DNA from: a virus
IMG/VR virus record: IMGVR_UViG_3300001850_000215
Span: 1 to 47,667 of that record
Length of the DNA stretch: 47,667 nt
Reading direction: 5' to 3' (one strand)
Part shown: positions 10,590-43,495 of the stretch, piece after piece
Position numbering within the stretch: position 1 is the stretch's first letter
Layout: every line of letters begins with the position of its first letter
Made by a program: the position numbers and the translations under genes
Notes under the pieces: generated by a model
What the model saw: only the letters and a program-made list of their open reading frames with translations
Database searches by the model: none
Told to the model about the DNA's origin: nothing

Positions 10590-11146
10590 GCTACTATAAC
10601 CTCACCTTTCCAGCTTGGTAGGTAATCTACCCAAGAAGGATGATATACGGTAACTGGGAACAGTTTTCTAAGCTCTATCAATTGTTCATGTGTTGGATGC
10701 CAAGGTATAAAGTTAGGCTTCCAGCGACCTACAGGTAGGTGGTCAGATTTAAGGTAGTTACACGTAGGGCATGCTGCTACTACGTTTGTCCACTCATCTT
10801 TACCACCTTTAGACATAGGTATTACGTGGTCACGGGTTATTGTCTCCGTAGTAAGTTGTATACTACAGTAAGCACAATGCCCTTTATCTCTATATAGGAG
10901 AGAACTTTTAGTTAGGATAGGTCTTTGAGTTCTTTTAACATACTCTTTGCGTATGATAATAGAAGGCCAATTAATTTTAACCCTAGGATTAGGAGTTTTA
11001 ATAGCTGCCCCATAGTCTGAAACTACAGAACAGGTATCTGCAAAAATTCTTATTACAGCTTGTTTTGCGCTTATTATGTGAAGGGGTAATACACTGATAG
11101 GTGTATAATCGGCGTTTAGAACCAAGGTTTTATAATTTGGTGTCAT
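10580..11146 (-). CDS. HNH endonuclease
   Basis: The 188-residue protein has a C-terminal HNH module: CAYCSIQL, TRDHVIPMSKGG, WTNVVAACPTCNYLKSD, with two CxxC pairs for structural zinc and the catalytic His. The N-terminal half (LVLNADYTPISVLPL) is the usual start of this stand-alone phage HNH family, which appears widely beside replication genes. It may cut DNA for packaging, homing or host degradation. A minus-strand promoter (TTGACT, 17 bases, TAAGAT) ends 7 bases before the ATG, so the mRNA may have no leader. Confidence 0.88.
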   Translation of the reverse strand: MTPNYKTLVLNADYTPISVLPLHIISAKQAVIRIFADTCSVVSDYGAAIKTPNPRVKINWPSIIIRKEYVKRTQRPILTKSSLLYRDKGHCAYCSIQLTTETITRDHVIPMSKGGKDEWTNVVAACPTCNYLKSDHLPVGRWKPNFIPWHPTHEQLIELRKLFPVTVYHPSWVDYLPSWKGEVIVAWN

Positions 11147-11153
11147 TTTTATT

Positions 11154-11182
11154 ATCTTAATATAAGTTTAACATCTAGTCAA
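11154..11182 (-). promoter_or_regulatory. Promoter for the HNH/RNase HI operon, probably leaderless
   Basis: TTGACT (11182-11177), 17-base spacer, TAAGAT (11159-11154), then 7 bases to the HNH ATG at 11146. The -35 box begins within the T-run of the Hsp20 terminator, so termination of one unit and initiation of the next are fused. Confidence 0.65.
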
Positions 11183-11188
11183 ATAAAA

Positions 11189-11214
11189 ACAGAGGGAGAT
11201 TGCTCTCCCTCTGT
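11189..11214 (-). terminator. Intrinsic terminator after hsp20
   Basis: On the minus strand an 11-bp perfect stem (arms 11204-11214 and 11189-11199, ACAGAGGGAGA type) with a 4-base loop is followed by TTTTTATTT. It ends the Hsp20 transcript and adjoins the promoter for the HNH gene. The stretch 11215-11259 between it and the Hsp20 stop has no supported gene. Confidence 0.92.
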
Positions 11215-11259
11215 CACTACTTAAGCCATTCCAGCTCTTCTTCTGTGTATGGCCACATT

Positions 11260-11652
11260 TTACTTAATTGGTAGCTTAGTAACCTTTTCTGGATTACGAG
11301 AAAAAGTGATCTTTAGCATACCATCCTTAAGCGTTACCTCATCTACAAGGAAAACAGGTGAGATAGGGAATACTGTCTTAAAAGATTTCTTAGTTAGACC
11401 CTGATGAACCCAACGTAGTGAGTTCTCTGGATAGGCTGAAGAAGGTTGAGCTTCTACAGTCAGGCGTCCATCTACGTATTCTACAGATAGGTCGTCTTTA
11501 TTATATCCGGCGACCGCCATCTCTAGCACGTAGGACCCGTTCTTCTCGTCCTTGTAAAGATTATATGGTAGGAAAGTCTTTGCCGAAGCTAGATAGTCTA
11601 GCTGACCAAAAATAGCATCTTCGATCTGGCGAATAATATCAATTGTAGTCAT
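11260..11652 (-). CDS. hsp20: Small heat-shock protein (Hsp20/alpha-crystallin)
   Basis: The 130-residue protein has an alpha-crystallin domain: YVLEMAVAGYNKDDLSVEYVDGRLTVEA, later LTKKSFKTVFPI, then VTLKDGMLKITFSRNP. It should act as an ATP-independent holdase for unfolding proteins. Hsp20 genes are frequent in T4-like phages, where the role is thought to be virion assembly or stress survival. It has its own promoter (11713-11740), a strong AAGGAG ribosome site and its own terminator, so it is a one-gene unit. Its leader folds into a 5' hairpin and a second small hairpin that can pair with the ribosome site. Confidence 0.92.
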   Translation of the reverse strand: MTTIDIIRQIEDAIFGQLDYLASAKTFLPYNLYKDEKNGSYVLEMAVAGYNKDDLSVEYVDGRLTVEAQPSSAYPENSLRWVHQGLTKKSFKTVFPISPVFLVDEVTLKDGMLKITFSRNPEKVTKLPIK

Positions 11653-11659
11653 GTTTTTT

Positions 11660-11740
11660 ATCTCCTTAAAAGCAAGATTTCATACGTCCCAAATGGCAAC
11701 GTATAGATATATAGTATAAGAGTTTTGTAGTAACTAGCAA
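11660..11740 (-). promoter_or_regulatory. hsp20 promoter and structured leader
   Basis: The promoter is TTGCTA (11740-11735), 16 bases, TATACT (11718-11713), with a predicted start near 11706. The leader opens with a 6-bp hairpin (11699-11704 with 11682-11687). A second element (11660-11678) can pair UCUU or AUCU with the AGGAGAU that contains the ribosome site, a weak, heat-sensitive type of pairing. An RNA thermometer is possible but not shown. Confidence 0.6.
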
Positions 11741-11747
11741 ATAAAAA

Positions 11748-12017
11748 TTATTCGCAAAGTTCTACAAGACTCAAGACTTGTTCATTTTTCTCTTCAAGCT
11801 CGTCTCTATTGCGCTTGAAAACTGCAACAGCAGTTGCACGAGTGATGCCACTAGGTAGTCCATACTCAGCTTTAAGATATCCTTGAACTTCTTTGATAAC
11901 ATCTCTGGCTGATTCGATGATTATAAGCTGATCTACAATCGCATCAATCTTATTCTTAAAATCTTGAGGATCTAGAGCCTTTGGCTCAGGTTTCTCTTTC
12001 TTTGGTTTCTCTGTCAT
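11748..12017 (-). CDS. Small helical protein, perhaps DsbA-like DNA-binding
   Basis: The 89-residue product has a Lys/Pro-rich start, then helices ending IKEVQGYLKAEYGLPSG, AVFKRNRDELEEKNEQVLSL. Length and pattern recall T4 DsbA, an 89-residue double-strand DNA-binding protein with a similar alternation of helices and a conserved HKxNRD/E-like segment, but the similarity is weak. It is cotranscribed with the 11986-12360 gene, overlapping it by 32 bases. Treat the function as open. Confidence 0.5.
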   Translation of the reverse strand: MTEKPKKEKPEPKALDPQDFKNKIDAIVDQLIIIESARDVIKEVQGYLKAEYGLPSGITRATAVAVFKRNRDELEEKNEQVLSLVELCE

Positions 12018-12360
12018 TTGTAATTACTTTAAATCCTTTTCTTATCTCATTAGGTGATTGCCTAATTAATTTTTTTGCTTCTAGCAATGCTAAGACGCTT
12101 TGGAATACTACATTAGTCATACTATAAGCTTCCTTAGCTTTATCTGTGTGAATTACTTTCAACACTAAGTTGTTTGCCAATATTAGATTGGCAGCGCCTA
12201 TCTTAACAGATCCATCATCTCTAGGAGATACTAGTTGCCATTTTTGACACTCATATACTGCTTGTCCGTCAGTTTCAATAACATCAACAGGGTCAGAGGC
12301 TAAGATATCTAGTATCTTGTCTACTAGTTCTAGGCTTAGACTTGAATGGTTGGTGACCAC
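11986..12360 (-). CDS. 124-residue protein of unknown function
   Basis: The protein has a helical start (LSLELVDKILDILASD) and a mixed core (KIGAANLILANNLVLKVIH). No motif is recognised. It overlaps the glycosylase upstream by 25 bases and the next gene downstream by 32, so the three are likely translated together. The high Ile/Val/Leu content suggests a compact soluble fold. Confidence 0.6.
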   Translation of the reverse strand: MVTNHSSLSLELVDKILDILASDPVDVIETDGQAVYECQKWQLVSPRDDGSVKIGAANLILANNLVLKVIHTDKAKEAYSMTNVVFQSVLALLEAKKLIRQSPNEIRKGFKVITNDRETKERET

Positions 12361-13169
12361 CAGGTTGTCCTACCATCGTCTAGGGTAACTTTTTGAATAG
12401 GGTTACCATAGGGATCTTCTTTTTTACTATATACCATTACGCCTAGTCTGGCCTTCATCATCTCATCTGGTTTGCTAGGAAACTGGATGTATGTGCCATG
12501 ATTAGCATATAGATCGCTATAGTTTCGTATGGTAGCGCCGCCCATCTCGTAGCTATTTCTAAGCACTTGCTTGACGCTATCGTATAGTCTAGATAGTTCT
12601 TCAACACTGCATTCCTTTACTTTTTTAGACGGATTAAGCCTAGATAAAAATAGGCTTTCACTCTTATAGATATTGCCTACTCCAGATATAGCTTTTTGCT
12701 CCATTAAGAAGCTAACAAGGGTTTTATTTTTGTGTTTCTCGCATATCTGTAACCACACTTGTAATTCTGGTGGATTAGATAGCATATCTGGACCCAACTC
12801 TTTGAGCTTCTTATCTAGATCTCCTTTAGAGTTAGTTATTTTCAGCGTTCCAAAATTTCGCATATCGCAATAGTATACACTAGTCTCGTCACTAAAATTG
12901 AACTTAACTCTGGCATAGTTATTCGGTTCTGTCTTATAGCTACCTGTCATGCCTAGAGTAGAGAATATCCACTGAGTCTCAAGAGACCACCAGATAAACT
13001 TACCATGACACTTAACCTCCTTAACCCTCTCAGGTTTAAGAGTAGAAAGTCCAGATATAGGAGTTTTAGTATACCTACCAGATACTGGAACTATAGATGT
13101 TAAGGTTTTACCATTAACAACTTGATCTAATTGAGTAGTAACGTGTAATACTTCAGGACCTTCTGGCAT
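12336..13169 (-). CDS. Fpg/Nei-family DNA glycosylase with a zincless finger
   Basis: The 277-residue protein begins MPEGPEV, so Pro2 and Glu3, the catalytic residues of Fpg/Nei enzymes, are present after Met removal. LGMTGS and QKAISGVGNIYKSESLF (helix-two-turn-helix, with the conserved Asn and Lys) follow. The C-terminal hairpin has no Cys: where a zinc finger has GR.T..CP.CQ this protein has GRTTWWSPTIQ, keeping the DNA-intercalating Arg. It should excise oxidised bases and nick the abasic site. Zincless members are known among NEIL1-like and viral enzymes. It overlaps genes on both sides. With the UV endonuclease at 26655 it makes a DNA repair set. Confidence 0.9.
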   Translation of the reverse strand: MPEGPEVLHVTTQLDQVVNGKTLTSIVPVSGRYTKTPISGLSTLKPERVKEVKCHGKFIWWSLETQWIFSTLGMTGSYKTEPNNYARVKFNFSDETSVYYCDMRNFGTLKITNSKGDLDKKLKELGPDMLSNPPELQVWLQICEKHKNKTLVSFLMEQKAISGVGNIYKSESLFLSRLNPSKKVKECSVEELSRLYDSVKQVLRNSYEMGGATIRNYSDLYANHGTYIQFPSKPDEMMKARLGVMVYSKKEDPYGNPIQKVTLDDGRTTWWSPTIQV

Positions 13170-13440
13170 TTTTATTCTTTTGTCTAAGCTGATTTACTTT
13201 TTCTTTAGCATAGTCAAGTTCGCTAAGAGTTTGACAAAATGCATTAAGAGTTTTAACAAAATCTATAGGAGAATATCCACAACTCTCATGAAATCCTATA
13301 GTTAGAACAGGCACAACAGAGAAGTAGTCTCGTCTCTTATAGAAATGAACTAGACCTGAATCATCTTTTGTCCAAGTATATCTTGAATCTAGATGTTTAG
13401 CATCAGTAGCTATTTTGTCAAAATTATATGATTGATTCAT
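13153..13440 (-). CDS. 95-residue protein of unknown function
   Basis: The product has a mixed N-terminal half (WTKDDSGLVHFYKRRDYFSV, VVPVLTIGFHESCGYS) and a basic coiled C terminus (AKEKVNQLRQKNKNARRS). No family recognised. A -10-like TATAAA lies exactly 6 bases before the ATG at 13440, as at other leaderless starts here, but no good -35 is visible. It overlaps the glycosylase by 17 bases. Confidence 0.6.
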   Translation of the reverse strand: MNQSYNFDKIATDAKHLDSRYTWTKDDSGLVHFYKRRDYFSVVPVLTIGFHESCGYSPIDFVKTLNAFCQTLSELDYAKEKVNQLRQKNKNARRS

Positions 13441-13489
13441 CGTATCTTTATAAGATAATTTATAGCAGAAAATTTGACAGTTTACCAGC

Positions 13490-13810
13490 TCAATTATTCT
13501 GAGGCTGGAGGGCTAGATACTCACTAAGAGTAAGATCAGATTCAATCATCTTGGGCCTAGTTGGTACTACGTCTACACCCCAGAAATCTTCATGATACTC
13601 CTTAGTGTAGTATCTGCTTTTTTCAATAGAATCAAGAGTCGCACAGGCACGACGTGCGGCAGTATTATAGCTCTTTACATCGAGCGGCATAATAGCCCTA
13701 TTGTAAGCATAGTTAAACCACTTTATGGATTCACTAGGATTCCAGCGACACATATTAGCAGCATCCGTAACTAGACGGTTAAAATCCATATCGAGACCGA
13801 TAATTTTCAT
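13490..13810 (-). CDS. 106-residue protein of unknown function
   Basis: The product contains DAANMCRWNPSESIKWFNYA and a C-terminal PKMIESDLTLSEYLALQ. Helices dominate. I do not recognise it. It follows the 13812-14006 gene by one base, with an AGAGGA ribosome site before the ATG. The gap 13441-13489 downstream contains only AT-rich sequence. Confidence 0.6.
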   Translation of the reverse strand: MKIIGLDMDFNRLVTDAANMCRWNPSESIKWFNYAYNRAIMPLDVKSYNTAARRACATLDSIEKSRYYTKEYHEDFWGVDVVPTRPKMIESDLTLSEYLALQPQNN

Positions 13811-13811
13811 A

Positions 13812-14006
13812 TTACTTATTCCTCTTTTTCTGTGACTTCTGATCTTTAGTTTCTAAATAGTCTTGATAGACCCTTTTAATAAATAGGGCTCCTACAAACT
13901 CTCCAGATTGTTCTTTAATTTTAAGATATTCGTCCATTACTTGTGTTTGGCCGTAACGATTGGCCATAGTTTCAAAAAATTGTTTACCTTCAGTGTAATA
14001 GCTCAT
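13812..14006 (-). CDS. 64-residue small protein, first gene of the leftward operon
   Basis: The product is helical and charged (FFETMANRYGQTQVMDEYLK), with a Lys-rich tail. Function is unknown. It is the first gene read from the divergent control region at 14007-14113; a promoter with TTGCCT, 17 bases and TATAAT ends exactly 6 bases before its ATG, so its message should be leaderless. Confidence 0.65.
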   Translation of the reverse strand: MSYYTEGKQFFETMANRYGQTQVMDEYLKIKEQSGEFVGALFIKRVYQDYLETKDQKSQKKRNK

Positions 14007-14012
14007 TCTTTT

Positions 14013-14041
14013 ATTATATTATGTTTACAAGTCTTAGGCAA
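14013..14041 (-). promoter_or_regulatory. Leftward leaderless promoter
   Basis: On the minus strand TTGCCT (14041-14036), a 17-base spacer and a perfect TATAAT (14018-14013) are followed by AAAAGA and the ATG at 14006. Start of transcription should coincide with the start codon. It is paired back to back with the rightward promoter at 14080-14107. Confidence 0.85.
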
Positions 14042-14079
14042 TAAAAAAATAAGAGAGAATGGTCAAATAAAGAAAATAT

Positions 14080-14107
14080 TTGACATCTAAGTTTATTATG
14101 CTATAGT
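14080..14107 (+). promoter_or_regulatory. Rightward leaderless promoter
   Basis: Consensus TTGACA (14080-14085), a 16-base spacer and TATAGT (14102-14107) are followed by 6 bases and the ATG at 14114. No ribosome site can fit. This is the rightward half of a divergent control region. Confidence 0.85.
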
Positions 14108-14113
14108 AATTGA

Positions 14114-14290
14114 ATGTATATAACCCCTCAAGAGCTGAAATCTCAGGTTAGAGATCTAAGAGCAGAGCTTCTTGCTATTGCAAAAGATCTAGGAGGAGAA
14201 ATTCAATTTCTTAATCAAAGAATTAATGAACTCTATTCTATCATTGAAAATCAGTCAGAGACAATCAGGAAGTTAACTAATGTTCAGTAA
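14114..14290 (+). CDS. 58-residue coiled-coil protein
   Basis: The frame opens at ATG 14114, six bases after a -10 box, and ends TAA 14288-14290. The product is a single long amphipathic helix with heptad Leu/Ile (VRDLRAELLAIAKDLGGEIQ, FLNQRINELYSII), so it is probably an oligomeric coiled coil. Its stop overlaps the next start by 11 bases. Leading a rightward operon from a strong promoter suggests early expression. No family recognised. Confidence 0.65.
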   Translation: MYITPQELKSQVRDLRAELLAIAKDLGGEIQFLNQRINELYSIIENQSETIRKLTNVQ

Positions 14291-14552
14291 ACTCTACGGT
14301 TTTTATCACGATTTTAATACAGAATCTCTAATAGCAGCTAGATTTCAAGAATTGAAAGATAGTGGTATATTTTTAGAGATGGAAGCTATACCCGCGTCAG
14401 ATCAATTAGCAGCTCTATGGGGAGTTAACGTATTTCCTACTTTTATTCTTTCAAAGTATAACGCTAGAGGTCCTATTTTACAAGGCGCTTTTCCTGGTCA
14501 CGATATGTTAGCTTGGTTAAATAAATACAAAATTATAGGTAATAACGAATAA
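14280..14552 (+). CDS. Thioredoxin-fold-like protein without a CxxC
   Basis: The 90-residue product reads as the second half of a thioredoxin fold: AIPASDQLAALWGVNVFPTF (the usual position of the cis-Pro strand), then GAFPGHDMLAWLNKY (last strand and helix). There is no CxxC motif and no Cys at all, so redox activity is not expected. It may be a degenerate thioredoxin-like binding protein. The stop shares one base with the start of the S21 gene. Confidence 0.5.
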   Translation: MFSKLYGFYHDFNTESLIAARFQELKDSGIFLEMEAIPASDQLAALWGVNVFPTFILSKYNARGPILQGAFPGHDMLAWLNKYKIIGNNE

Positions 14553-14821
14553 TGAAAATTTACGTAAGACACAACGACGTTACTAAAGCATATAAGATAT
14601 TGATGAAAAAAGTTAACGATGAAGGAGTGTTTAAGACTTTAAAATCTAAAGAACACCACCTTAGCAAGAGTCAAAAGATTAGAGCAAAAAAGAAAATCGC
14701 GCTATCTAGATTTAGAAAAGAACAAAAGAAAAAGCGCATGATAGAACAGAGACAAGAAGAAAAGTTCTTACTCTATTCAAAAAAATCAGGTAATCAACAA
14801 CCTAACCGGAAATATTCTTAA
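14552..14821 (+). CDS. rpsU: Ribosomal protein bS21
   Basis: The 89-residue protein begins MKIYVRHNDVTKAYKILMKK, then EGVFKTLKSKEHHLSKSQK, then a long run of Lys/Arg-rich helix. That is the bS21 layout (VxVREN-x-A-x-RRF-KR, G-x3-E-x-R-x-R-x2-Y-x-KP, K-R-K-x3-A-x-R). The C terminus is extended by about 15 residues beyond E. coli S21. bS21 binds the small subunit near the mRNA exit and the 16S 3' end, and affects which messages are initiated. Phages of aquatic bacteria carry bS21 more often than other ribosomal proteins. It is in the rightward operon from the divergent promoter. Confidence 0.85.
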   Translation: MKIYVRHNDVTKAYKILMKKVNDEGVFKTLKSKEHHLSKSQKIRAKKKIALSRFRKEQKKKRMIEQRQEEKFLLYSKKSGNQQPNRKYS

Positions 14822-14830
14822 AAATATAAC

Positions 14831-14859
14831 TTGGCTAGTCCTTATAGATTTCATATAAT
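14831..14859 (+). promoter_or_regulatory. Leaderless promoter
   Basis: TTGGCT (14831-14836), a 17-base spacer and a perfect TATAAT (14854-14859) are followed by 6 bases and the ATG at 14866. This is the same geometry as at 14114, 14006, 23659 and 42614. Confidence 0.8.
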
Positions 14860-14865
14860 CAATAT

Positions 14866-15126
14866 ATGAAAGCATATAAAGGAAAATTCAAAAAGAAAGA
14901 TGGATCTGAGCGAGAGATGGTTTTTGCTAAGATTCATGACATTGTTAAATATAACAATGAGTTTATCGCAGCTAAAATCGTAGGAGACGGAACTCCTAAA
15001 AACTATAAACCCGGACAAGAGCTTGTATGGGATATAGAAGTAGATGATTTTAGAGTTTTTAACTGGGAGAAAGCAACAGAAGTAGAAGAGATTACTATTT
15101 CTGAAAGTATTTTTGAAGGGAGTTAA
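14866..15126 (+). CDS. 86-residue beta-rich small protein
   Basis: The product shows strands separated by turns: MKAYKGKFKKKDGSEREMVF, then PGQELVWDIEVDDFRVFNW, then an acidic tail. The K-x-DG-S-x-R-x-M-x-F start and the D-x-R-x-FN-W end suggest an SH3-like small barrel of the kind found in short phage proteins that replace or bind WYL/SH3 domains; this is weak. Its mRNA should be leaderless. The next gene begins immediately after its stop. Confidence 0.6.
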   Translation: MKAYKGKFKKKDGSEREMVFAKIHDIVKYNNEFIAAKIVGDGTPKNYKPGQELVWDIEVDDFRVFNWEKATEVEEITISESIFEGS

Positions 15127-15297: not shown

Positions 15298-15466
15298 CCT
15301 TTTTACAAGTGAGATCGGTATAGAATACAACTATAACTACTGGTCTATATATAATGCCAAGGGCAAACTAGTCTTGGCTACTAAAAGTGAAACTATAGCT
15401 AAAAAAGCGTTAGATAAATTAAATCACGCCTTAGCTGAAAAAATCTCGTTGATAGCAACGAAATAA
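15278..15466 (+). CDS. 62-residue protein ending at the tmRNA
   Basis: The product has a Tyr-rich start (EIGIEYNYNYWSIYNAKGKL) then a helix (SETIAKKALDKLNHALAEK). Function is unknown. Its last codons also form the TCGTTG/CAACGA hairpin that looks like the 5' end of the tmRNA acceptor piece, so the tmRNA may be cut out of the operon transcript or the gene's end may be shared. Confidence 0.55.
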   Translation: MFQLKHNLFTSEIGIEYNYNYWSIYNAKGKLVLATKSETIAKKALDKLNHALAEKISLIATK

Positions 15467-15660
15467 GCATACTGGACCGGAGGGCAGAGCTCCGCGCCTC
15501 CACCAAACTTGAGGGGGCGAATTAGGATCGACAGGTGTGTAAAGGTTGAAGTAGAGATAGGCGCGCAAGCAGCCTTAATCGCAAGACATAAAATAAATGC
15601 TAACGATAACAGCATCGAAGGTATCCGCCTAGCGGCATGACTTCTGCGGTATGGGCTCCA
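15440..15660 (+). ncRNA. ssrA: Circularly permuted two-piece tmRNA
   Basis: The acceptor piece comes first: P2 strand near 15467-15474, T-stem CGGAG/CTCCG (15478-15482, 15490-15494) around the loop GGCAGAG, acceptor strand CGCCTCC (15495-15501) and ACCA to 15505. A 7-base spacer follows. The coding piece opens with GGGGGCG (15513-15519), which pairs with the acceptor strand over all 7 positions (one G-U), then the conserved AGGATCGACAGG. GTGTGT (15535-15540) pairs with GCATAC (15468-15473) as P2. The tag frame is 15599-15640 and reads ANDNSIEGIRLAA then TGA. The ANDN start is usual for alphaproteobacterial tags and the LAA end suits ClpXP. The CCGC-CTA-GCGG hairpin near the stop fits P5. Outer ends are approximate. 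Confidence 0.93.
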
Positions 15661-15701
15661 CCGTATTACCTAACGGGCCTATTTTCTTAGAAAGATACTA
15701 T

Positions 15702-16403
15702 ATGTTTATCTACTGGCGCGTTTGCGAGATGCAAAAATCCATCAGTTATGTTAATAGGTGGAAAAACTACAATAAAACAGAAATTCTTAAAAAGTGTTGG
15801 CTATCTCTTCAAGAGTCAGTATCTAAAGACGACAAGATTATCTTAATAGAAGATAATGTAACTCAAGAAACCTTAGATTGGTTACTAGAAACTAGTAAAA
15901 CAACAGTATCTATAGTTCATGTTCCTGAGCATACTTGGGAATTTCATCAACATACTGTTACTCTTTTTAATACTTTAAAATATTATGTAAAAGATCAAGA
16001 ACAGGCAAGCCACTTCATTGTAGAAGATGACTATATGTTTGTTCCTAATGGACTAGCAATTTTTAAACAGGCAGTAGATAACTGGAATCAGGGATTTGCT
16101 GTTCCATATGATTATATCGATAGATATACTGATCAAAAACCCACACAAATAGTTTTAGGCCCAGACAGGCACTGGCGGACCGTAGATAGTATTACTATGA
16201 CGGTTGCAGCCAAAGGCTTTGTCTGGGTTAAGTATATGCAGGATCTTGAGCAAGCAGCCCCTACTAGTAATGATAAAGTATTTGAGGATATCTTAAAACA
16301 AGTTCCTTGTATCTCACCCCTACCAACTCTTGCAAGCCATCTAACAGAACATCATATAAGTCCTTATATGAATGTCGATGCTCTTTGGGATTATTATAAA
16401 TGA
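15702..16403 (+). CDS. Glycosyltransferase-like protein, GT-A type
   Basis: The 233-residue product (ATG 15702 with AGAAAG upstream) contains KIILIEDNVTQETLDWLL, then HFIVEDDYMFVPNGLAIFK, where EDD resembles the metal-binding DxD of GT-A enzymes, then a C-terminal SPYMNVDALWDYYK. The in-frame extension back to 15651 runs into the tmRNA and is rejected. It opens a nine-gene sugar cluster and its stop overlaps the epimerase start by four bases. Donor and acceptor are unknown. Confidence 0.65.
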   Translation: MFIYWRVCEMQKSISYVNRWKNYNKTEILKKCWLSLQESVSKDDKIILIEDNVTQETLDWLLETSKTTVSIVHVPEHTWEFHQHTVTLFNTLKYYVKDQEQASHFIVEDDYMFVPNGLAIFKQAVDNWNQGFAVPYDYIDRYTDQKPTQIVLGPDRHWRTVDSITMTVAAKGFVWVKYMQDLEQAAPTSNDKVFEDILKQVPCISPLPTLASHLTEHHISPYMNVDALWDYYK

Positions 16404-22754: not shown

Positions 22755-22756
22755 TA

Positions 22757-23077: not shown

Positions 23078-23646
23078 TAATAGGTATAAGTGGTAAGCTA
23101 TACAGCGGCAAGAACACCTTTGCTGCATGCTTATTGAGAGAATTTGATTATCGCGGTATAACTTTTCATCTAAAATCTTTTGGTTTTAAGCTAAAAAAAA
23201 TAGGAGCTTATCTGACTAATACGCCAGAAGATTTATGGTTTACTCAAGAAGGTAAACAACAATATCTAAATGCCTGGGGTATGACAATAGGGGAGTTTCA
23301 ACAAAAACTTGGAACAGAAGCTATGAGAGAGTGCATTCATAAAGATGGATGGGTAATGGCTCTTATGGCGGATTATGACCCTTTTTGTAATTGGATTGTT
23401 ACAGACGTTAGATTCCTTAACGAGGCTGAGTCAATAAAGTCTAGAGGTGGAATCATAATTAGAATAGAGGGTGATCCTTTAGGTAAAAGACATACGTCTA
23501 CTAGAGACATAAACCATCCTAGTGAAACTTCTCTAGATAGCTATACTAGTTTTGACTATATAATACAGAATAATTCTACGATTGATAATTTACAAATGCA
23601 AGCAAGTCATATTGCTTTAAACTTGCTAAGAACTACTTTTATTTAA
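23074..23646 (+). CDS. Deoxynucleoside monophosphate kinase
   Basis: The 190-residue protein starts MIIGISGKLYSGKNTFAACL, a P-loop with Lys and Asn-Thr as in T4 gp1-type dNMP kinases. It continues with GEFQQKLGTEAMRECIHKDG and NWIVTDVRFLNEAESIKSRGG, both typical of that family. It should phosphorylate dNMPs for DNA synthesis, which fits the RNR, dUTPase and ThyX genes further right. It ends 12 bases before the DNA ligase start. Confidence 0.88.
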   Translation: MIIGISGKLYSGKNTFAACLLREFDYRGITFHLKSFGFKLKKIGAYLTNTPEDLWFTQEGKQQYLNAWGMTIGEFQQKLGTEAMRECIHKDGWVMALMADYDPFCNWIVTDVRFLNEAESIKSRGGIIIRIEGDPLGKRHTSTRDINHPSETSLDSYTSFDYIIQNNSTIDNLQMQASHIALNLLRTTFI

Positions 23647-23652
23647 TATAAT
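23623..23652 (+). promoter_or_regulatory. Leaderless promoter for DNA ligase
   Basis: TTGCTA (23623-23628), an 18-base spacer and TATAAT (23647-23652) are followed by ACAAAA and the ATG at 23659. The promoter lies mostly within the end of the dNMP kinase gene. The 6-base gap means no room for a ribosome site. Confidence 0.75.
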
Positions 23653-23658
23653 ACAAAA

Positions 23659-25407
23659 ATGAATTATCAAGAACTTAAAGAGCTTATCAAAAAGCACTGC
23701 TATCTTTATTACGATGTTAATCGTCCAGAGATTTCAGATCAAGAGTTCGATCGTCTCTATGATGCGCTAGAAGCCATAGAAGATGCTCAAGGCTGGTCAG
23801 ATTATGATTCTCCTACTCGTAAAGTTGGTGGCTCTAAAGGTAAAGTCAAGCACAAGCACAGGCTTTATTCTCTAAAAAAGATCTATGATAAGGAAGAGCT
23901 AGATCCAGCATTCAAGGTGGTAACACCCAAGATTGACGGAGCAAACATAACTCTAATCTATAAGAAAGGTAAGTTTACTCTTGCCCTTACTCGTGGAGAT
24001 GGAGAGTTTGGCGAGGACGTAACTCATCTAGTTAAGCATATTCAGAATATCCCTATGGAAGTATCTTCAAAATATGAAGAACTTGTAATTAATGGCGAGT
24101 GTGTAACTGATAATGAAGTTACTAACTTTCGTAATTACGTATCTGGTGCTCTGGGACTTGACTCCGCAGAAGAATTCAAAACCCGTAATATTAAATTCAT
24201 AGCTCACGAATGGCTAGGGGTTGATATTGATTATAAGACTAGGATGAACATAGTAAAAACTATGGGATTCTTAACCGTTATGGATGGAGAGATACTTAAT
24301 AAGTATCCTCAAGACGGAGAAGTCTATAGGCTAGATTCTTACAAAGATAGTGTTAGACTTGGGTGGACTTCCAAATACCCTCGTTTCGCTGTCGCCCTTA
24401 AACCTCGAGGTCTCTTAACAGCTATTGCTGAGCTACAAAATGTAGTTTGGGTAGTTGGAAGGACTGGTAGTGTTAATCCGGTAGGAATTGTATCTCCAAT
24501 CACTTTGGATGGTGCAGTTATTACTAGGGTAACTCTACATAATATTGGCATTATTGAAGAACATGATCTTGCTCTAGGCGATATTATAGAGATTGAAAGA
24601 GCCGGCGGAGTAATTCCTAAATTTATTCGTGTAGTAGATAAAACAAAGACTAATAACAAAATTACTGCACGACACGCTGAAGAACAACTAGGTATTAAAA
24701 CCTATCGTAATGGTCCTAAACTATTTTGCGAAGACCACGAAGATCTAAGTGCGCCTAAGGTTTTGGAACATTTTATCAAGACTATGGGTATCAAAGGTCT
24801 CGGCCCTTCTAGCGTTAGCAAAATGAAACTGTCTCACCCTCTTGATCTATACAAAGATCAAAACTGGAACCTACTAGGAGCTAATGGTTCAAAGGTAAAA
24901 GCTGAGATTGAAAAAAGCAAGAATAAGCCATACCCGGTTGTTCTTGCAGCTCTAGGTATTCCTCAGATTGGACTAACCCTGGCTGAGAAAATTGTTAAAA
25001 AGATACCTAATTTTAACAGACTACGCGACGTAGAAACTATTAAAATTGAAAGCGTAGCTGAGAAAACTATAGACAGTATTCTCAGCTGGTTAGATATCAA
25101 TGAGGACTGGGTAACTGAGCTACCTCTTAATCTATCTATTGATATGACTCTAGAGAGTATCACAGCTCCTATCTCTAAAAACAAGAAAATCTGTATTACT
25201 GGCAAGTTTGACCTAACTAGGGAGGAACTCGCTGAAATTCTAACAGGTTACGGATATGAAGTAAAAAACACGGTAACTCGTGATCTTCATACCCTAATTA
25301 GTGGCGGAGATACTACGTCTAGTAAGTATAAAAAAGCTGAGCAATACGGTATTAACATTATAGACTTTTGGTCAAACAAAGAAAAGATCCTAACTGGTCA
25401 ATTCTAA
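23659..25407 (+). CDS. ligA: NAD-dependent DNA ligase with BRCT domain
   Basis: The 582-residue protein has a short Ia domain (YYDVNRPEISDQEFDRLY), an adenylation domain with TPKIDGANI (Lys91 receives AMP), TRGDGEFGEDVT, INGECV and YPRFAVALKPRG. An OB fold follows (NPVGIVSPITLDGAVITRVT, LHN, GDIIEIERAGGVIPK), then HhH repeats (GLGPSSVSK, GIPQIGLTLA) and a C-terminal BRCT domain (KKICITGKFDLTREELAEIL). The zinc-finger segment keeps only one Cys and a His (LFCEDHEDL) in place of four Cys. It is shorter than the roughly 670 residues of bacterial LigA. It seals nicks, probably during replication and repair. Transcription likely starts at its own start codon. Confidence 0.95.
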   Translation: MNYQELKELIKKHCYLYYDVNRPEISDQEFDRLYDALEAIEDAQGWSDYDSPTRKVGGSKGKVKHKHRLYSLKKIYDKEELDPAFKVVTPKIDGANITLIYKKGKFTLALTRGDGEFGEDVTHLVKHIQNIPMEVSSKYEELVINGECVTDNEVTNFRNYVSGALGLDSAEEFKTRNIKFIAHEWLGVDIDYKTRMNIVKTMGFLTVMDGEILNKYPQDGEVYRLDSYKDSVRLGWTSKYPRFAVALKPRGLLTAIAELQNVVWVVGRTGSVNPVGIVSPITLDGAVITRVTLHNIGIIEEHDLALGDIIEIERAGGVIPKFIRVVDKTKTNNKITARHAEEQLGIKTYRNGPKLFCEDHEDLSAPKVLEHFIKTMGIKGLGPSSVSKMKLSHPLDLYKDQNWNLLGANGSKVKAEIEKSKNKPYPVVLAALGIPQIGLTLAEKIVKKIPNFNRLRDVETIKIESVAEKTIDSILSWLDINEDWVTELPLNLSIDMTLESITAPISKNKKICITGKFDLTREELAEILTGYGYEVKNTVTRDLHTLISGGDTTSSKYKKAEQYGINIIDFWSNKEKILTGQF

Positions 25408-25460
25408 TTTTGATAAAGTTTTTAATCATACCATTAAAGAAACTTGTTTACACTTTAATC

Positions 25461-25489
25461 TTGCTCAGCTCTAAGTTCGCTGATATAAT
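25461..25489 (+). promoter_or_regulatory. Promoter for the four-repeat HTH gene
   Basis: TTGCTC (25461-25466), 17 bases and a perfect TATAAT (25484-25489) predict a start near 25496 and a leader of about 58 bases. The leader contains AGAGGAAAA before the ATG. Upstream, 25416-25445 forms an AT-rich imperfect hairpin (AAGTTT-TTAAT with ATTAA-AAACTT) that may end the ligase transcript; it lacks a T-run. Confidence 0.8.
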
Positions 25490-25553
25490 CAGAACATAAT
25501 CAATCGGGAAGATAGCTGATTGAAAACACATAAAAGAGGAAAATATATAAATC

Positions 25554-26231
25554 ATGTCAAAGTTTGAATACACAGACGAAATGGTTGCTCGCATGCAGTC
25601 ACTTTGCGCAGGTGGAGTCACCGAGGAAGTCGTTGAGTCTATTTGCACTGAGTTCGAGTTCCCACGTCGTTCAGTAACTGCCAAGCTACGTAAGCTAGGC
25701 TACGATGTGCCTAAGAAGCCAGGCGCAGCCCCAATCTTCTCTCCTGAGGAGACCGAGGCACTAAAGCAGTATCTAGCTGCAAATAGCGGTAAGTTTACCG
25801 CAGAGGAGATCGCTGCTAATTTCGGTGGCGGTAACTTCAATGCCCGCCAGATCAACGGTAAGGCTCTCTCACTAGAGATGACTCAGCACATCAAGCCAGC
25901 TGAGAAGAAGGTAGCTCCAAAGAGCTATACTGCTGAGGAAGAGGCTCTAATCCGTCAGCTAGTCGGTAATGGCGCTCATCTAGAGGACATTGCTGCCAAG
26001 CTAAACAAGCCTGTCAATTCAGTTCGTGGTAAGCTTCTATCAATGGAGCTAAAGGCACCACAGCGTGACAAGAAGGCTACCAAGACCGATCCATACGAGG
26101 GTATCGAGGAGATGGCCGACAAGACCGTAGCCGAGATTGCTGCTCACTTCGGCAAGACCGAGCGCGGTGTTCGCACTGTTCTCACTCGTCGTAAGATGGC
26201 TTGCGCCGATTACCAGCCAAAGGCTGAGTAA
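25554..26231 (+). CDS. Four-repeat HTH/SANT-like DNA-binding protein, codon-optimised
   Basis: The 225-residue protein contains four tandem three-helix units, at residues about 4-52, 62-108, 123-166 and 181-215, each with the pattern [FY]-[ST]-x-E-E-x-x-x-[LI]...I-A-x-x-F/L-x-x-x-x-x-S/G-V-x-x-K/R-L. The pattern is Myb/SANT or sigma-region-4-like. Codon use is strikingly different from neighbours: Lys is almost always AAG, Glu GAG, with many GCC, GAC and CGT codons, and the gene looks visibly richer in GC. With its own promoter, ribosome site and terminator, it should be very highly expressed. A nucleoid-like or genome-coating protein is my best guess. The N-terminal half of the 22757 protein resembles one unit. 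Confidence 0.75.
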   Translation: MSKFEYTDEMVARMQSLCAGGVTEEVVESICTEFEFPRRSVTAKLRKLGYDVPKKPGAAPIFSPEETEALKQYLAANSGKFTAEEIAANFGGGNFNARQINGKALSLEMTQHIKPAEKKVAPKSYTAEEEALIRQLVGNGAHLEDIAAKLNKPVNSVRGKLLSMELKAPQRDKKATKTDPYEGIEEMADKTVAEIAAHFGKTERGVRTVLTRRKMACADYQPKAE

Positions 26232-27683: not shown

Positions 27684-27725
27684 AATGCGTTAGTTTCAAT
27701 TTAAGTTGACTAACGCATTTTTATT
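27684..27725 (+). terminator. Intrinsic terminator after uvdE
   Basis: AATGCGTTAGT (27684-27694) and ACTAACGCATT (27709-27719) form a perfect 11-bp stem followed by TTTATTT. The right arm holds part of the -35 of the next promoter, so termination and initiation overlap. Confidence 0.92.
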
Positions 27726-27734
27726 TGCTAGAAT
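27706..27734 (+). promoter_or_regulatory. Promoter for the replication operon
   Basis: TTGACT (27706-27711), 17 bases, TAGAAT (27729-27734). The predicted start is near 27741, giving a 15-base leader with AAGGA 7 bases before ATG 27756. The -35 box is inside the right arm of the uvdE terminator. Confidence 0.8.
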
Positions 27735-27755
27735 CTATTGATGTAAGGATTGAAC

Positions 27756-28520
27756 ATGGCTGTAAAAAAAGAAATACCAGAGTCTAAAATTAGACAGGTT
27801 ATCTGGATGCTTAAGGCAGGTAAAACTAAAAAGGCCTGCTGTGAACATCTAGGTATTGCTTATAATACCAAAAGACTAGATACTATTATTACGGAGTTCA
27901 AAGAAGGTATCGAAAGAGAAGAGCGCCTTAAGAAAGAAATTCGCGCTAAGCCTATCGAAGAAACTACTAAAAAGCAGATTATTGATTCATATTTAAAAGG
28001 TGAATCAGCCTCTGCAATAGCTGAGAGTTTATACCTAACTCCACAAAAAGTTAAACAAGTTCTTATAGAAGGTAACGTTCCTATCAGGGCTCGCTCAAAA
28101 AGAGGCGAAGCCAATGTGGACCATGTCATTCAAGACCTTGACAAAAAGTTTGTCAAGGGTGAGAAAGTATTTGTTGCCAAAGTTAACGGATTTGCTATAG
28201 TAAAAGAAATATATGATGAAGAGTATTTAGAGAGGTTTGACAACGCTCATCTAAAATCTGTAGAGTTGTATGCTTGGTCCAAACTAATTCCAGATCAAGA
28301 ACCTGTAGAAGGTGTTCATTTTGAATCCTACTATGTTCTTGACGACGGGAGTGAGTGGAAACGCGAAGCTGCTCAAAACTTCATTAACAGAGTTACAAAA
28401 ATAATTGAAGAAACAGGAAGAGAGACTTACCTGGTATACCATACCGGAGAGTATTGCTATTTTGCAGAATACTATCGTAGAGATCTTTTCCCGATAGCAG
28501 GGAGTAGCCCAGTTGCTTGA
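27756..28520 (+). CDS. Two-HTH protein at the head of the replication operon
   Basis: The 254-residue protein has two helix-turn-helix units (IRQVIWMLKAGKTKKACCEH with LGIAYNTKRL; IIDSYLKGESASAIAESLYL with TPQKVKQVLIEG), the second like a resolvase/terminase HTH. The C-terminal 120 residues are a mixed domain (AKVNGFAIVKEIYDEEYLER, TYLVYHTGEYCYFAEYYRRD) I do not recognise. It may bind the origin or load the helicase, since it is directly followed by dnaB with an 8-base overlap. ATG 27756 is chosen over TTG 27750 because of ribosome-site spacing. Confidence 0.65.
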   Translation: MAVKKEIPESKIRQVIWMLKAGKTKKACCEHLGIAYNTKRLDTIITEFKEGIEREERLKKEIRAKPIEETTKKQIIDSYLKGESASAIAESLYLTPQKVKQVLIEGNVPIRARSKRGEANVDHVIQDLDKKFVKGEKVFVAKVNGFAIVKEIYDEEYLERFDNAHLKSVELYAWSKLIPDQEPVEGVHFESYYVLDDGSEWKREAAQNFINRVTKIIEETGRETYLVYHTGEYCYFAEYYRRDLFPIAGSSPVA

Positions 28521-29883: not shown

Positions 29884-29887
29884 ATAA

Positions 29888-34776: not shown

Positions 34777-35227
34777 TTGGTATGAGTTAAAGTCATGTAG
34801 TGAAAATGTGCCTGAAGGTATAATCATGTTGACTTTTGCTCTTAGTAAAGGCTATAATTCAATTATAAGTTCTTCAGAGAGTTTAATACTCTCTAGACTT
34901 AATATTGATTATATACCTCAGATCTTATATCGTAAAAGATATATAATTAAAACTAACAAAGGAATTGTTAGTAATTATAATACTCTTATGCCACAGTGTT
35001 ACTTTAGTGAATATGAGTGGCTATACGATACAGAATCTGTATATAATAAACTAGTATATATCTATTCTTTAAGTCAAAGATCCATAACAAATAAAAATTT
35101 GTATATTCCAGAAAGCTATTTAGAAGATAGATACTGGGATAATCCTTACTTAAAACACAGAGATACAAAAATATGGTTCAAACCAGAACTTACACGCATA
35201 ACAAATAAACTAAACCAAAGGAGATAA
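34763..35227 (+). CDS. 154-residue protein of unknown function
   Basis: The product is rich in Tyr, Ser and Ile (MLTFALSKGYNSIISSSESL, LYDTESVYNKLVYIYSLSQR) and mixed alpha/beta. I do not recognise it. It overlaps the helicase end by 14 bases and lies three bases before the SSB gene, so it is cotranscribed with both. The AT-rich codon use is typical here. Confidence 0.6.
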   Translation: MIQFNWYELKSCSENVPEGIIMLTFALSKGYNSIISSSESLILSRLNIDYIPQILYRKRYIIKTNKGIVSNYNTLMPQCYFSEYEWLYDTESVYNKLVYIYSLSQRSITNKNLYIPESYLEDRYWDNPYLKHRDTKIWFKPELTRITNKLNQRR

Positions 35228-35230
35228 AAT

Positions 35231-36950: not shown

Positions 36951-36970
36951 ACATTATAGAAAGCTTTTCA

Positions 36971-39756: not shown

Positions 39757-39757
39757 T

Positions 39758-41881
39758 ATGATTGCACCAGGAACAAAGCCTTCTCACTTTCATCTAAGTG
39801 ACAAATTTAAACAAGAACTTCAAAATACTCCAGAACAATGGGGTTTTGGCGGTCTATCTTCTTTTACGTTTTATAGAACGTATTCAAGAAAGAAAGCAAA
39901 CGGAACTATGGAAACATGGGCTGATTGTGTTATTAGAGTTATCGAGGGTATGTTTACTATCCTAAAAACTCACGCTAAACTATCTCACATTCCTTGGAAT
40001 GATAAGAAAGCTGCAAAACACGCACAAGAAGCAGCTACACGTATGTTTGAGTTTAAATGGCTCCCTCCTGGTAGAGGTCTATGGATGATGGGAACTCCAT
40101 TCGTATGGGAAAAAGGTGGAGCCTGCCTTAATAACTGCGCCTTCGTCTCTACAGAAAATATTGAATCCGAACTATCTAAACCATTCGCATTCTTGATGGA
40201 TATGTCAATGGTAGGAGTAGGGGTAGGGTTCGATACCAAGGGCGCCGATAAACTAGCAGTAACCGTTCCTGTAGGAAGATCAGAAACTATAGTAGTAGAT
40301 GATTCTAGAGAAGGATGGGTAGAGGCTATTTCTTGCCTAATTGATTCTTATTTAGAGCCGGGATCTACTCCTGTAGAGATTAATACCTCTCTTGTTCGTC
40401 CGTATGGAGATCCTATTGCTGGATTTGGTGGTGTTGCTTCTGGGCCAGAGCCACTAGAGCAGGGTTTTTATGGTATCAGAGATGTTCTTGAGAAGAGAGC
40501 TATGAGTGATGATAGACTACTATCCTCTACAGACATCGTAGATATTATGAACCTAATAGGTAAGATTGTAGTAGCCGGAAATGTTCGTAGAACAGCAGAA
40601 ATAGCTTTTGCTGAGCCAGATGATGCTGAGTTCATTGAGATGAAGCGTTGGGATAAGTTTGGGGTAGAGACCGGCAGCATCGCTCCTCCAGAACTAAAGG
40701 CTCTTTCAGAAGAAGATTATAATGCTTATAACGCTGACTGGAATGCCAGAGGAGAGATTGCTAAAAGATATGCTAAATACGAGTGGTCTTATAAGTTTGG
40801 TGGCTGGCGTTGGGCTTCTAACAATTCTCTTTTTGCCTATGTGGGAATGGATTATACTGACGCAGCTAAAAGTATTGCAGTAAATGGAGAGCCAGGTTTT
40901 GCATGGTTAGATAATATGCAAAAGTACGGTCGTATGAAGGACGGCATCAATAATAAGGACTATCGCGTGCGTGGGGGTAATCCTTGCCTTGAGCAAAGTC
41001 TTGAACCATATGAACTATGCTGTCTTGTAGAAAATTTCCCTGCTAAGCACAAAGACTACTGGGACTATCAGAGAACACTTAAATTCTCTTACATGTATGC
41101 CAAGACTGTAACACTAGTAGCAACCCATTGGGCCGAGACTAACGCAGTAATTACCCGTAATCGTAGAATTGGATGTTCTCAGAGCGGTATCCAGACAGCA
41201 ATGCTCAAGTTCGGCAGACATAAGTATTTCGATCAGTTCTGCGATAGAGCCTATACATACATTCAATATGTAGATCAGAAATATGCTGAATGGTTAGGAG
41301 TTCCTAAGAGCATTAAGACAACTTCTGTAAAGCCCAGCGGAACTGTCTCGCTAGTAGCCGGAGAGCTACCTGGTATTCACTATGCGGAAAGCGAGAGTTA
41401 CTATAGAACAGTTAGAGTAGCTTCTAATTCTCCATTCGTTCCTCTTCTTAAAGAGGCTGGATATAGAATTGAACCAGCAGTATCTGATCCTACTAGAACC
41501 TTAGTAGTATATTTCCCCGTAATTTTAAGAGATGGGACTATCTCTAATAAGAACATATCTATTTGGGAACAGTTTGCCAACGCAGTAGATATGCAACATT
41601 ATTGGGCAGATAACCAAGTATCTATTACTATTACCTTTAATCAAACTGAAGCAGATCAAATTGCAAGAGCCCTATCTGCTTTTGATAACAGACTTAAGGG
41701 AGTCTCGCTACTACCTGCCTCTGACCACGGATATGCTCAAGCTCCATATACTCCTGCTCCACGCGATGAGCTAGAAGCCTATGCTGCAACACTAAAGCCT
41801 ATCAATTTCGATAGCTTAACCAAAGAAGGTGATAATGCAGATGCTAATAAGTTCTGTGATGGAGACGCTTGCTTAATATGA
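39758..41881 (+). CDS. nrdJ: Class II (B12-dependent) ribonucleotide reductase
   Basis: The 707-residue protein resembles monomeric adenosylcobalamin-dependent ribonucleoside-triphosphate reductases: LPPGRGLWMMGT, ACLNNCAFVST, MSMVGVGVGFD, NPCLEQSLEPYELCCLVENFP (active-site Cys and Glu), SVKPSGTVSLVAGELPGIH, and a C-terminal FCDGDACLI with a C-x4-C pair like the redox Cys of the Lactobacillus enzyme. It makes dNTPs directly from NTPs and needs host or environmental cobalamin. The glutaredoxin gene overlapping its stop may reduce the C-terminal pair. An AGGAGAAT ribosome site precedes the ATG. Confidence 0.93.
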   Translation: MIAPGTKPSHFHLSDKFKQELQNTPEQWGFGGLSSFTFYRTYSRKKANGTMETWADCVIRVIEGMFTILKTHAKLSHIPWNDKKAAKHAQEAATRMFEFKWLPPGRGLWMMGTPFVWEKGGACLNNCAFVSTENIESELSKPFAFLMDMSMVGVGVGFDTKGADKLAVTVPVGRSETIVVDDSREGWVEAISCLIDSYLEPGSTPVEINTSLVRPYGDPIAGFGGVASGPEPLEQGFYGIRDVLEKRAMSDDRLLSSTDIVDIMNLIGKIVVAGNVRRTAEIAFAEPDDAEFIEMKRWDKFGVETGSIAPPELKALSEEDYNAYNADWNARGEIAKRYAKYEWSYKFGGWRWASNNSLFAYVGMDYTDAAKSIAVNGEPGFAWLDNMQKYGRMKDGINNKDYRVRGGNPCLEQSLEPYELCCLVENFPAKHKDYWDYQRTLKFSYMYAKTVTLVATHWAETNAVITRNRRIGCSQSGIQTAMLKFGRHKYFDQFCDRAYTYIQYVDQKYAEWLGVPKSIKTTSVKPSGTVSLVAGELPGIHYAESESYYRTVRVASNSPFVPLLKEAGYRIEPAVSDPTRTLVVYFPVILRDGTISNKNISIWEQFANAVDMQHYWADNQVSITITFNQTEADQIARALSAFDNRLKGVSLLPASDHGYAQAPYTPAPRDELEAYAATLKPINFDSLTKEGDNADANKFCDGDACLI

Positions 41882-42114
41882 AAATACAAGTATATGGAAA
41901 ACAAAATTGTCCTTACTGTGTAAAGGCAAAAGAATGGCTAGAAGCTAGAAATCTTCAATATACCTATACAGACGTATTAAAAGATATATCTATAGCCGAT
42001 TTAATCTCTATAAAAGAGAGATACAATATGAATACTGTTCCGATTATAGTCATTAATGATGAGTTAATCGGAGGATATACTGACCTAGTAAAGTTAGATA
42101 TACCGTCACAGTAA
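41878..42114 (+). CDS. Glutaredoxin
   Basis: The 78-residue protein has QNCPYCVKAKEWL (CPYC active site), NTVPIIVIND (TVP, cis-Pro glutathione site) and IGGYTDLVKL (GG-x-D). It should reduce disulphides, most likely those of the neighbouring ribonucleotide reductase. The ATG at 41878 overlaps the RNR stop by four bases, so the two are coupled. The alternative start nine bases upstream adds only three residues. Confidence 0.93.
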   Translation: MKIQVYGKQNCPYCVKAKEWLEARNLQYTYTDVLKDISIADLISIKERYNMNTVPIIVINDELIGGYTDLVKLDIPSQ

Positions 42115-42135
42115 CAGAAAGAGAGAACGTATGCT

Positions 42136-42582
42136 TTGGCTAGTAAAAGCAAACTTAAAGGATCAGCTTTTGAAGCTAAGATACGAGATAAGTTAACAGA
42201 AGAACTAGGAATTAAATTTGAGAGAACTCCTCTAAGCGGAAGTATATCTTATCTTAGAGGAGATCTCTGGGTTCCTTCAGATACTAAGGGTTTTGAATAT
42301 GTTATAGAGTGTAAACACTACTCAGAACTAGAATTTAATAATTTGCTAACCGCAAAAAGCACAGATATATTAGAATTCTGGAAACAAGCCTTAGACGAAT
42401 CTCAAACTATGAATAAACATCCATTAGTAATTTTTAGATGGAATAGAAGTAAAGATTTTATTCTTTGGAATACAGATTTAGACTTGGATCACCAAGTAGA
42501 ATATAAAGTATTTGGTTATAAGTTTAAAATGGGTCTATTATCTGATTGGATAGATAAGTTTAAACTTACTAAAGTAGCTTGA
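42136..42582 (+). CDS. PD-(D/E)XK endonuclease, resolvase-like
   Basis: The 148-residue protein has KGSAFEAKIRDKL, FERTPLSGSISYLRGDLWVP (catalytic Asp) and EYVIECKHYSEL (E-x-K), the order of Holliday junction resolvase or restriction-like endonucleases. It may resolve recombination intermediates or act as a packaging-related nuclease. A TTG start at 42136 is used; the ATG at 42131 is in another frame. It is followed by the flap nuclease unit. Confidence 0.75.
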   Translation: MASKSKLKGSAFEAKIRDKLTEELGIKFERTPLSGSISYLRGDLWVPSDTKGFEYVIECKHYSELEFNNLLTAKSTDILEFWKQALDESQTMNKHPLVIFRWNRSKDFILWNTDLDLDHQVEYKVFGYKFKMGLLSDWIDKFKLTKVA

Positions 42583-42607
42583 CCTATCTACTAAAGCATA
42601 GTATAAT
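42579..42607 (+). promoter_or_regulatory. Leaderless promoter for the flap nuclease unit
   Basis: TTGACC (42579-42584), 17 bases and TATAAT (42602-42607), then ACTAAT and ATG 42614. Same 6-base spacing as the other leaderless starts. The -35 overlaps the 3' end of the nuclease gene. Confidence 0.8.
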
Positions 42608-42613
42608 ACTAAT

Positions 42614-43495
42614 ATGATAGAGAATGATACAAAAGGTTGGAATGACTTATCTGAATTAGATAGTTACATTCCAGAGAAACCCGTTGTAGGCGGTAAGAGT
42701 ATCTTAATTTGTGACGGTAACAACTTAGGATACAGATATCTACAGCGTAGAAACTATAATAACTTTAAAGATGACTATGCTAGAACAGTAGAGAGCTTAG
42801 CTAAAAGCTATGGTTGCAAAGATATCTTAGTAGCTTTTGATTTTGGTAAGAGCTACTATAGAACTAGTCTTTATCCTGAATATAAAGCTACTCGTAAAAA
42901 GCCTCAAGATGAAAAAGAGAAAGAACATTACGACCAGTTCTTTGCATGTCTAAACGACGTTGCAGATACTATTCCATTTGCAGTAGCAAAGTTTAGAGGA
43001 GTAGAGGCTGACGATCTTATTACACACGCAGTCCTAAGAAACAGGAACACCGCAGATCATATCTGGATTATCTCAAGCGATAGAGACATCTATCAGCTCT
43101 TAGATAAGAATGTTAGTATCTTTAATATTTTCTCAAGAAAAGAGATAACAGTAGAATCTCTCTATGAGAAATTTCAAGTTACTCCTAAAGAATACATGAT
43201 TTCCAGAATTATCTCTGGAGACGATGGAGATAATATTATCGGCATCGACGGGATCGGCGAGAAAAGAGCAACTGCCCTAGCCAGAGAGCATAAGACTTTT
43301 ACTGGTCTACTTGAAGCCCTACCAGTTAAAGGTCGTTCTAAATACATCCAAAACCTAAATGCAGGTAAAGATACCCTGATCAGAAACGAAAGACTTATCA
43401 ACCTTATCAAATACAATGAAGAAGCAATTCTCTCTGGTAAGGGAGAAGAAGTAACATTAGAGGCACTAAATGCAATCACCACATTCAACCATTAA
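42614..43495 (+). CDS. 5'-3' exonuclease / flap endonuclease
   Basis: The 293-residue protein has ILICDGNNLGYRYL (metal Asp), LVAFDFGKSYYRTSLYPEYK, FRGVEADDLITHA (two Asp), WIISSDRDIYQLL (two Asp) and GDDGDNIIGIDGIGEKRA (helix-hairpin-helix with Asp). These are the motifs of T4 RNase H and the Pol I 5' nuclease. It removes primers and flaps, supplying the 5' nuclease missing from the polymerase here. It is read from its own promoter and ends overlapping the dUTPase start by 26 bases. Confidence 0.94.
   Translation: MIENDTKGWNDLSELDSYIPEKPVVGGKSILICDGNNLGYRYLQRRNYNNFKDDYARTVESLAKSYGCKDILVAFDFGKSYYRTSLYPEYKATRKKPQDEKEKEHYDQFFACLNDVADTIPFAVAKFRGVEADDLITHAVLRNRNTADHIWIISSDRDIYQLLDKNVSIFNIFSRKEITVESLYEKFQVTPKEYMISRIISGDDGDNIIGIDGIGEKRATALAREHKTFTGLLEALPVKGRSKYIQNLNAGKDTLIRNERLINLIKYNEEAILSGKGEEVTLEALNAITTFNH

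Follow-up and report, generated by a model that had tools for sequence, protein, structure and literature searches.

Leaderless promoters predicted at operon heads of an uncultivated T5-related phage clade, one of them kept clade-wide

How would translation begin at operon heads whose promoters leave no room for a ribosome-binding site? The question is raised by an IMG/VR phage record of 47.7 kb, which was analyzed as a whole and is referred to here as the window. Its replication genes run in the T5-type order—ligase, D5-like regulator, helicase, primase, polymerase, helicase, SbcD/SbcC-like, exonuclease, and dUTPase—and this gene order matches that of Salmonella phage S124. The polymerase and ligase share ∼40% and ∼36% identity, respectively, with those of cultured T5-like phages, and no cultured close relative of the window was found. 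Judged by sequence, the phage belongs to an uncultivated, T5-related clade, for which we claim no membership in the family Demerecviridae.

A sequence-only reading of the window had proposed a distinct class of leaderless promoters, in which the −10 box is followed by exactly 6 nt and an ATG. All five of its main examples are present, with both boxes, spacers of 16 to 18 nt, and a gap of exactly 6 nt. The promoter of a leftward operon (14004 to 14041, minus strand) consists of TTGCCT (14041 to 14036), 17 nt, TATAAT (14018 to 14013), 6 nt, and the ATG (14006 to 14004) of gene 13812 to 14006. The other four are on the plus strand. The first of them (14080 to 14116) has TTGACA (14080 to 14085), 16 nt, TATAGT (14102 to 14107), 6 nt, and the ATG (14114 to 14116) of gene 14114 to 14290, which heads a rightward operon. 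A second (14831 to 14868) serves gene 14866 to 15126, with TTGGCT (14831 to 14836), 17 nt, TATAAT (14854 to 14859), 6 nt, and ATG (14866 to 14868). The NAD-dependent DNA ligase gene has TTGCTA (23623 to 23628), 18 nt, TATAAT (23647 to 23652), 6 nt, and ATG (23659 to 23661; whole site 23623 to 23661), and the 5′-3′ exonuclease gene has TTGACC (42579 to 42584), 17 nt, TATAAT (42602 to 42607), 6 nt, and ATG (42614 to 42616; whole site 42579 to 42616). A sixth, near-leaderless promoter (11144 to 11182, minus strand), also correctly described in that reading, precedes the HNH gene (10580 to 11146) with TTGACT (11182 to 11177), 17 nt, TAAGAT (11159 to 11154), a gap of 7 nt, and ATG (11146 to 11144). 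The sites follow the sigma-70 pattern (−35 TTGacN, 16 to 18 nt, −10 TAtaaT), and every leaderless site has ATG as its start codon. One proposed member, 13440(−), was struck from the class because its −10-like TATAAA is missing from the orthologue in G007, a 72-kb relative of the window.

Is a gap of 6 nt more frequent than chance would allow? Taken alone, the bare pattern TATARTN6ATG counts for little: it occurs six times across the window against 2.35 expected in shuffles, and 6 was reached in 5 of 100 shuffles. One of the six, the TATAATN6ATG at 34976, lies within a gene and was rejected. We rely on a motif search at fixed distance from gene starts, the check that the earlier reading had called for, in which starts were called mechanically and scored with a generic, hand-made sigma-70 −35/−10 matrix. 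Here gap 6 stands far beyond chance. Of the window's 70 genes, 5 have a scored promoter at gap 6 and one has it at gap 7, whereas every other gap averages 0.022 genes; a Markov null gave 0.000 at gap 6, with a maximum of 0 in 200 draws. G007 has gap 6 in 8 of 119 genes (against 0.043); further leaderless heads lie on its other arm. In deduplicated relatives, 32 genes have gap 6 and 9 have gap 7, whereas the other gaps average 2.07 genes each, and the distribution of −10-to-ATG distances has two peaks, one at 6 to 7 nt and a broad one at ∼20 to 30 nt. None of the scored promoters at gap 6 in the window, G007, G012, or G010 preceded a GTG or TTG start.

We then compared the six sites with those of close relatives, most of them metagenomic fragments, at ∼75 to 80% DNA identity to the window. 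The −10 boxes show 0 of 42 possible changes and the −35 boxes 5 of 42, while 56 of 119 spacer positions have changed. The gaps of 6 to 7 nt carry 15 substitutions in 43 positions and no insertion or deletion. Sequence thus drifts at these six sites while the boxes and the distance stay fixed. In G007, for example, the 14006(−) orthologue keeps both TATAAT and gap 6, and the HNH 11146(−) orthologue reads TTGACC-17-TAAGAT-7-ATG. Very strong consensus promoter-like sites also occur inside coding sequence at 6524(−), where the site is antisense, and at 34853(+); these are conserved in relatives as well, which may reflect protein conservation.

How deep does this conservation reach? The gene at 14114 to 14290 (+) encodes a 58-aa protein of coiled-coil appearance with no PHROG or Pfam match. 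We fetched homologues of the 14866 gene from viral contigs and found the 14114 family within them by protein profile, so that membership was set by protein rather than promoter, although the profile seeds derived from earlier promoter hits. This yielded 54 distinct homologues (median pairwise amino-acid identity 0.39), which share ancestry and are not 54 independent events. A promoter of the form TTG[AC].., 16 to 17 nt, TAnnnT stands at gap 6 (43 genes) or 7 (6 genes) in 49 of the 54; the five misfits are two genes with gap 10, a third with CATACT at gap 6, a fourth that is ambiguous, and a fifth without a promoter. Spacer identity in the family is 0.38, not far above expectation for unrelated AT-rich DNA. 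A Shine-Dalgarno site is absent from 40 of 41 leaderless 14114-type heads. Transcription starts usually favor a pyrimidine at −1 and a purine at +1, and a pyrimidine directly precedes the ATG in 38 of 43 14114-type genes compared with 215 of 524 control genes (Fisher P = 8e-10), a bias that fits a +1 on the A of the ATG. Fixed boxes and an exact gap amid diverging spacers, together with this pyrimidine and the two-peaked gap distribution, support the proposal of a distinct leaderless class at operon heads.

Is there space for a ribosome site behind other promoters, as the same reading supposed? The predicted leaders say so. At 27729(+) (27706 to 27758), TTGACT-17-TAGAAT-6-A(+1) precedes a 15-nt leader, AUGUAAGGAUUGAAC, which contains AAGGA and ends at the ATG at 27756. 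At 25484(+) (25461 to 25556), the D5-like regulator has TTGCTC-17-TATAAT and a ∼58-nt leader with GAGG before the ATG at 25554, an arrangement conserved in G007. The 8002(−) promoter has a predicted leader of ∼44 nt. An ATG also sits at the predicted +1 of the 27729(+) promoter, with TAA directly after it (ATGTAA, 27741 to 27746), ahead of the real start at 27756; it is not conserved, since G007 has ATA there. Similarly, upstream of the exonuclease homologue in contigs L029 and L030, a tiny frame (ATGAAAGGT...) opens with an ATG on or beside the predicted +1. Such tiny frames at the +1 of leadered promoters may have arisen by chance or be remnants of leaderless starts. In the tested stretch of Salmonella phage S124, scored promoter gaps ranged from 26 to 74 with none at 6; for that stretch, then, leaderless heads are rejected as a general feature of the T5-like module.

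Leaders have come and gone at other genes. In phages with the 14114 type, the 14866-type gene also has a sigma-70 promoter of comparable kind, but in 35 of 37 scored instances it stands at a gap of 20 to 30 nt with a TGGAG-like Shine-Dalgarno site; the window and its close relative account for both gap-6 cases. The 14006-type gene mostly has AAGGA-type leaders elsewhere and is leaderless solely in the window lineage. The simplest reading of these sequences is that the window lineage lost leaders and Shine-Dalgarno sites at 14006(−) and 14866(+). The ligase keeps its leaderless promoter in L013 to L016, is also leaderless, with TATTAT+6 and a −35 of TTTCAT, in L038 to L043 and L047, has TATCAT+5 in L046, and has leaders with GAGG or AGG in L017 to L020 and L044 to L045. 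The exonuclease promoter is kept in L009 to L012 with diverged spacers, whereas the homologue in L029 and L030 has a short leader instead. DNA polymerase is leaderless in G012, G010, and their close relatives but not in the window, and the 27756 gene, leadered in the window, is leaderless in G012 (gap 7). The leaderless form is gained and lost at many heads and held fixed at one, the 14114 type.

What mechanism would these sites serve? We think it very likely that they are sigma-70-type promoters placed so that +1 coincides with the A of the ATG; the resulting mRNAs would lack a leader, and ribosomes would bind them at the 5′-AUG without a Shine-Dalgarno site. A host sigma-70-type RNA polymerase would start at the A of the AUG, and ribosomes would load directly on that 5′-terminal AUG. 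Leaderless translation is generally promoted by IF2 and initiator tRNA, raised IF3 inhibits it (PMC9031893), and it needs AUG: in the alphaproteobacterium Sinorhizobium meliloti, 171 of 171 leaderless starts are AUG (PMC3616915). The next genes of the rightward run—14280 and 14552 to 14821 (+), the latter encoding a bS21-like ribosomal protein (Ribosomal_S21, E 3.7e-9)—would be translated by coupling to the leaderless first gene, which is plausible because both overlap the preceding stop codon. On this reading, two evolutionary layers are superimposed: an ancient leaderless head at the divergent junction, the 14114 gene, kept clade-wide, and a later spread in the window lineage to 14006(−) and 14866(+) through loss of leader and Shine-Dalgarno site. 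Ligase, exonuclease, and polymerase genes have switched between leadered and leaderless states in different lineages.

The same architecture could instead be a by-product of compaction, in which a dense genome crowds its promoters into the short gap and the tail of the upstream gene until leaders vanish, and leaderless translation itself is not selected. This would change the purpose of the arrangement rather than the arrangement, and we hold it to be unlikely, though it is the rival to be taken most seriously. It would account for the ligase head at 23659, where the −35 lies inside the preceding gene and the −10 box plus 6 nt fill the entire intergenic gap, for the exonuclease head at 42614, where the −35 overlaps the end of the preceding gene, and for the frequency of leader gains and losses. 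Yet at 54 of 56 loci the most conserved case, the 14114 type, faces a divergent neighbor across an intergenic region, usually of 40 to 130 nt, with nothing forcing compaction, and its gap stays at 6 to 7 nt while the 14866-type gap in these phages ranges over 20 to 30 nt.

Transcription might also start 1 to 4 nt upstream of the ATG, leaving a very short leader and a near-leaderless message still translated from its bound 5′ end. Sigma-70 start choice is flexible by 1 to 2 nt, and gaps of 7 and 10 occur in some 14114 homologues; we nevertheless judge this quite improbable, given that 43 of 49 stand at exactly 6 and that the pyrimidine bias before the ATG is the one expected if the A is +1. That the boxes are chance AT-rich hexamers, with the genes expressed by read-through or from other promoters, gains a little from the marginal count of the bare pattern in the window but is contradicted by the comparative data (scored sites at gene starts, with boxes and gap conserved) and has almost no chance of being right.

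How do these heads, which we continue to read as leaderless, compare with known systems? Leaderless middle and late transcripts of Thermus phage phiYS40 were reportedly described by Sevostyanova et al. in 2007. Leaderless phage transcripts are known from lambda (cI), from phiYS40 (PMC3594737), and from cluster O mycobacteriophages (PMC4351075). Phage phiYS40 is likewise a lytic phage with many leaderless messages, for which a rise in IF2 and a fall in IF3 were proposed to favor them; most of its middle and late genes are leaderless, in a Thermus host. Here the arrangement, complete with a −35 box, marks five or six heads, and the phages form an uncultivated T5-related clade that encodes bS21 and tmRNA. 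Cluster O phages have divergent leaderless promoters, but they are unrelated phages of unrelated hosts, known from five close relatives, in contrast to conservation over 54 homologues and a leadered contrast in the same genomes here. TA-led bacterial genes (Zheng et al. 2011, PMC3160421; Deinococcus-Thermus, PMC12340547) share this signature, with a −10 box lying ∼12 nt ahead of the start codon; they are cellular, and some groups depend little on a −35 box, which is present here. As in those genes, the −10 ends ∼6 nt before the start more often than chance allows, the start is AUG, and a Shine-Dalgarno site is lacking. The lambda cI leaderless mRNA (cited in PMC9031893) is also a phage message that starts at its AUG in a divergent control region. 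It is a repressor maintenance transcript, unlike the small genes, ligase, and exonuclease found here, among which no repressor was identified.

What surrounds the 14114-type head? At 56 of 56 loci, a bS21 gene follows it on the same strand, 0.2 to 6 kb downstream, a distance at which a shared operon is not always evident. The window also carries a permuted tmRNA of alphaproteobacterial type (∼15384 to 15731; tag ANDNSIEGIRLAA). ARAGORN found permuted tmRNAs downstream of the 14866-type gene in 25 of 43 loci in relatives, and Rfam tmRNA matches were present at 9 of 9 such loci scanned. This tmRNA does no more than suggest Alphaproteobacteria as hosts; a Mediterraneibacter MAG contig, the lone match in a scan of genome contigs with the tmRNA segment, was judged a chance match and discarded as a host clue. 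A viral contig, L053, shares the tmRNA segment (at 9123 to 9142 of L053) with the window and otherwise has no DNA similarity to it. The 14114-type gene, the window's bS21, and its tmRNA were absent from the cultured phages searched, as was the 14866-type gene, queried with relatives L110 and L085. Elsewhere, the window encodes curli-type genes (1990 to 4895: CsgF, CsgG, a protein with a weak curlin-repeat match, and a FecR-domain protein), adjoined by a protein with CHASE2 and adenylate/guanylate cyclase catalytic domains (4895 to 6949), and a protein with many similar ANDLTTYxSAL-type repeats (46270 to 47202, minus strand). Curli operons or genes have been reported in marine phages with permuted tmRNA (PMC9004378), and phage-encoded bS21 is already known (PMC6375957, PMC9723584). 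A clade-wide leaderless head beside phage bS21 and tmRNA appears to be new: limited literature searches found no report combining such a head with phage bS21 and permuted tmRNA.

What might the arrangement mean for these phages? In practical terms, their gene heads escape methods that expect a ribosome-binding site, and the fixed gap offers a rule for start-codon annotation and promoter calling in uncultivated members of the clade. A bolder idea, which we regard as a long shot, is that its leaderless head exempts the rightward operon from translation remodeling by the phage's own bS21 (and tmRNA). If so, phage bS21 (and tmRNA) would redirect host ribosomes away from Shine-Dalgarno-led messages, or among them, while the 14114-headed operon stayed translated, and the window lineage would have extended Shine-Dalgarno-independent starts to more operons. 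Read from sequence alone, a leaderless 14114-type head is kept across a diverse clade while a nearby gene keeps its Shine-Dalgarno leader, in phages that encode a bS21 of their own and, in many cases, a permuted tmRNA. Leaderless and leadered neighbors within the same genomes thus provide a natural paired comparison on the purpose of leaderless translation.
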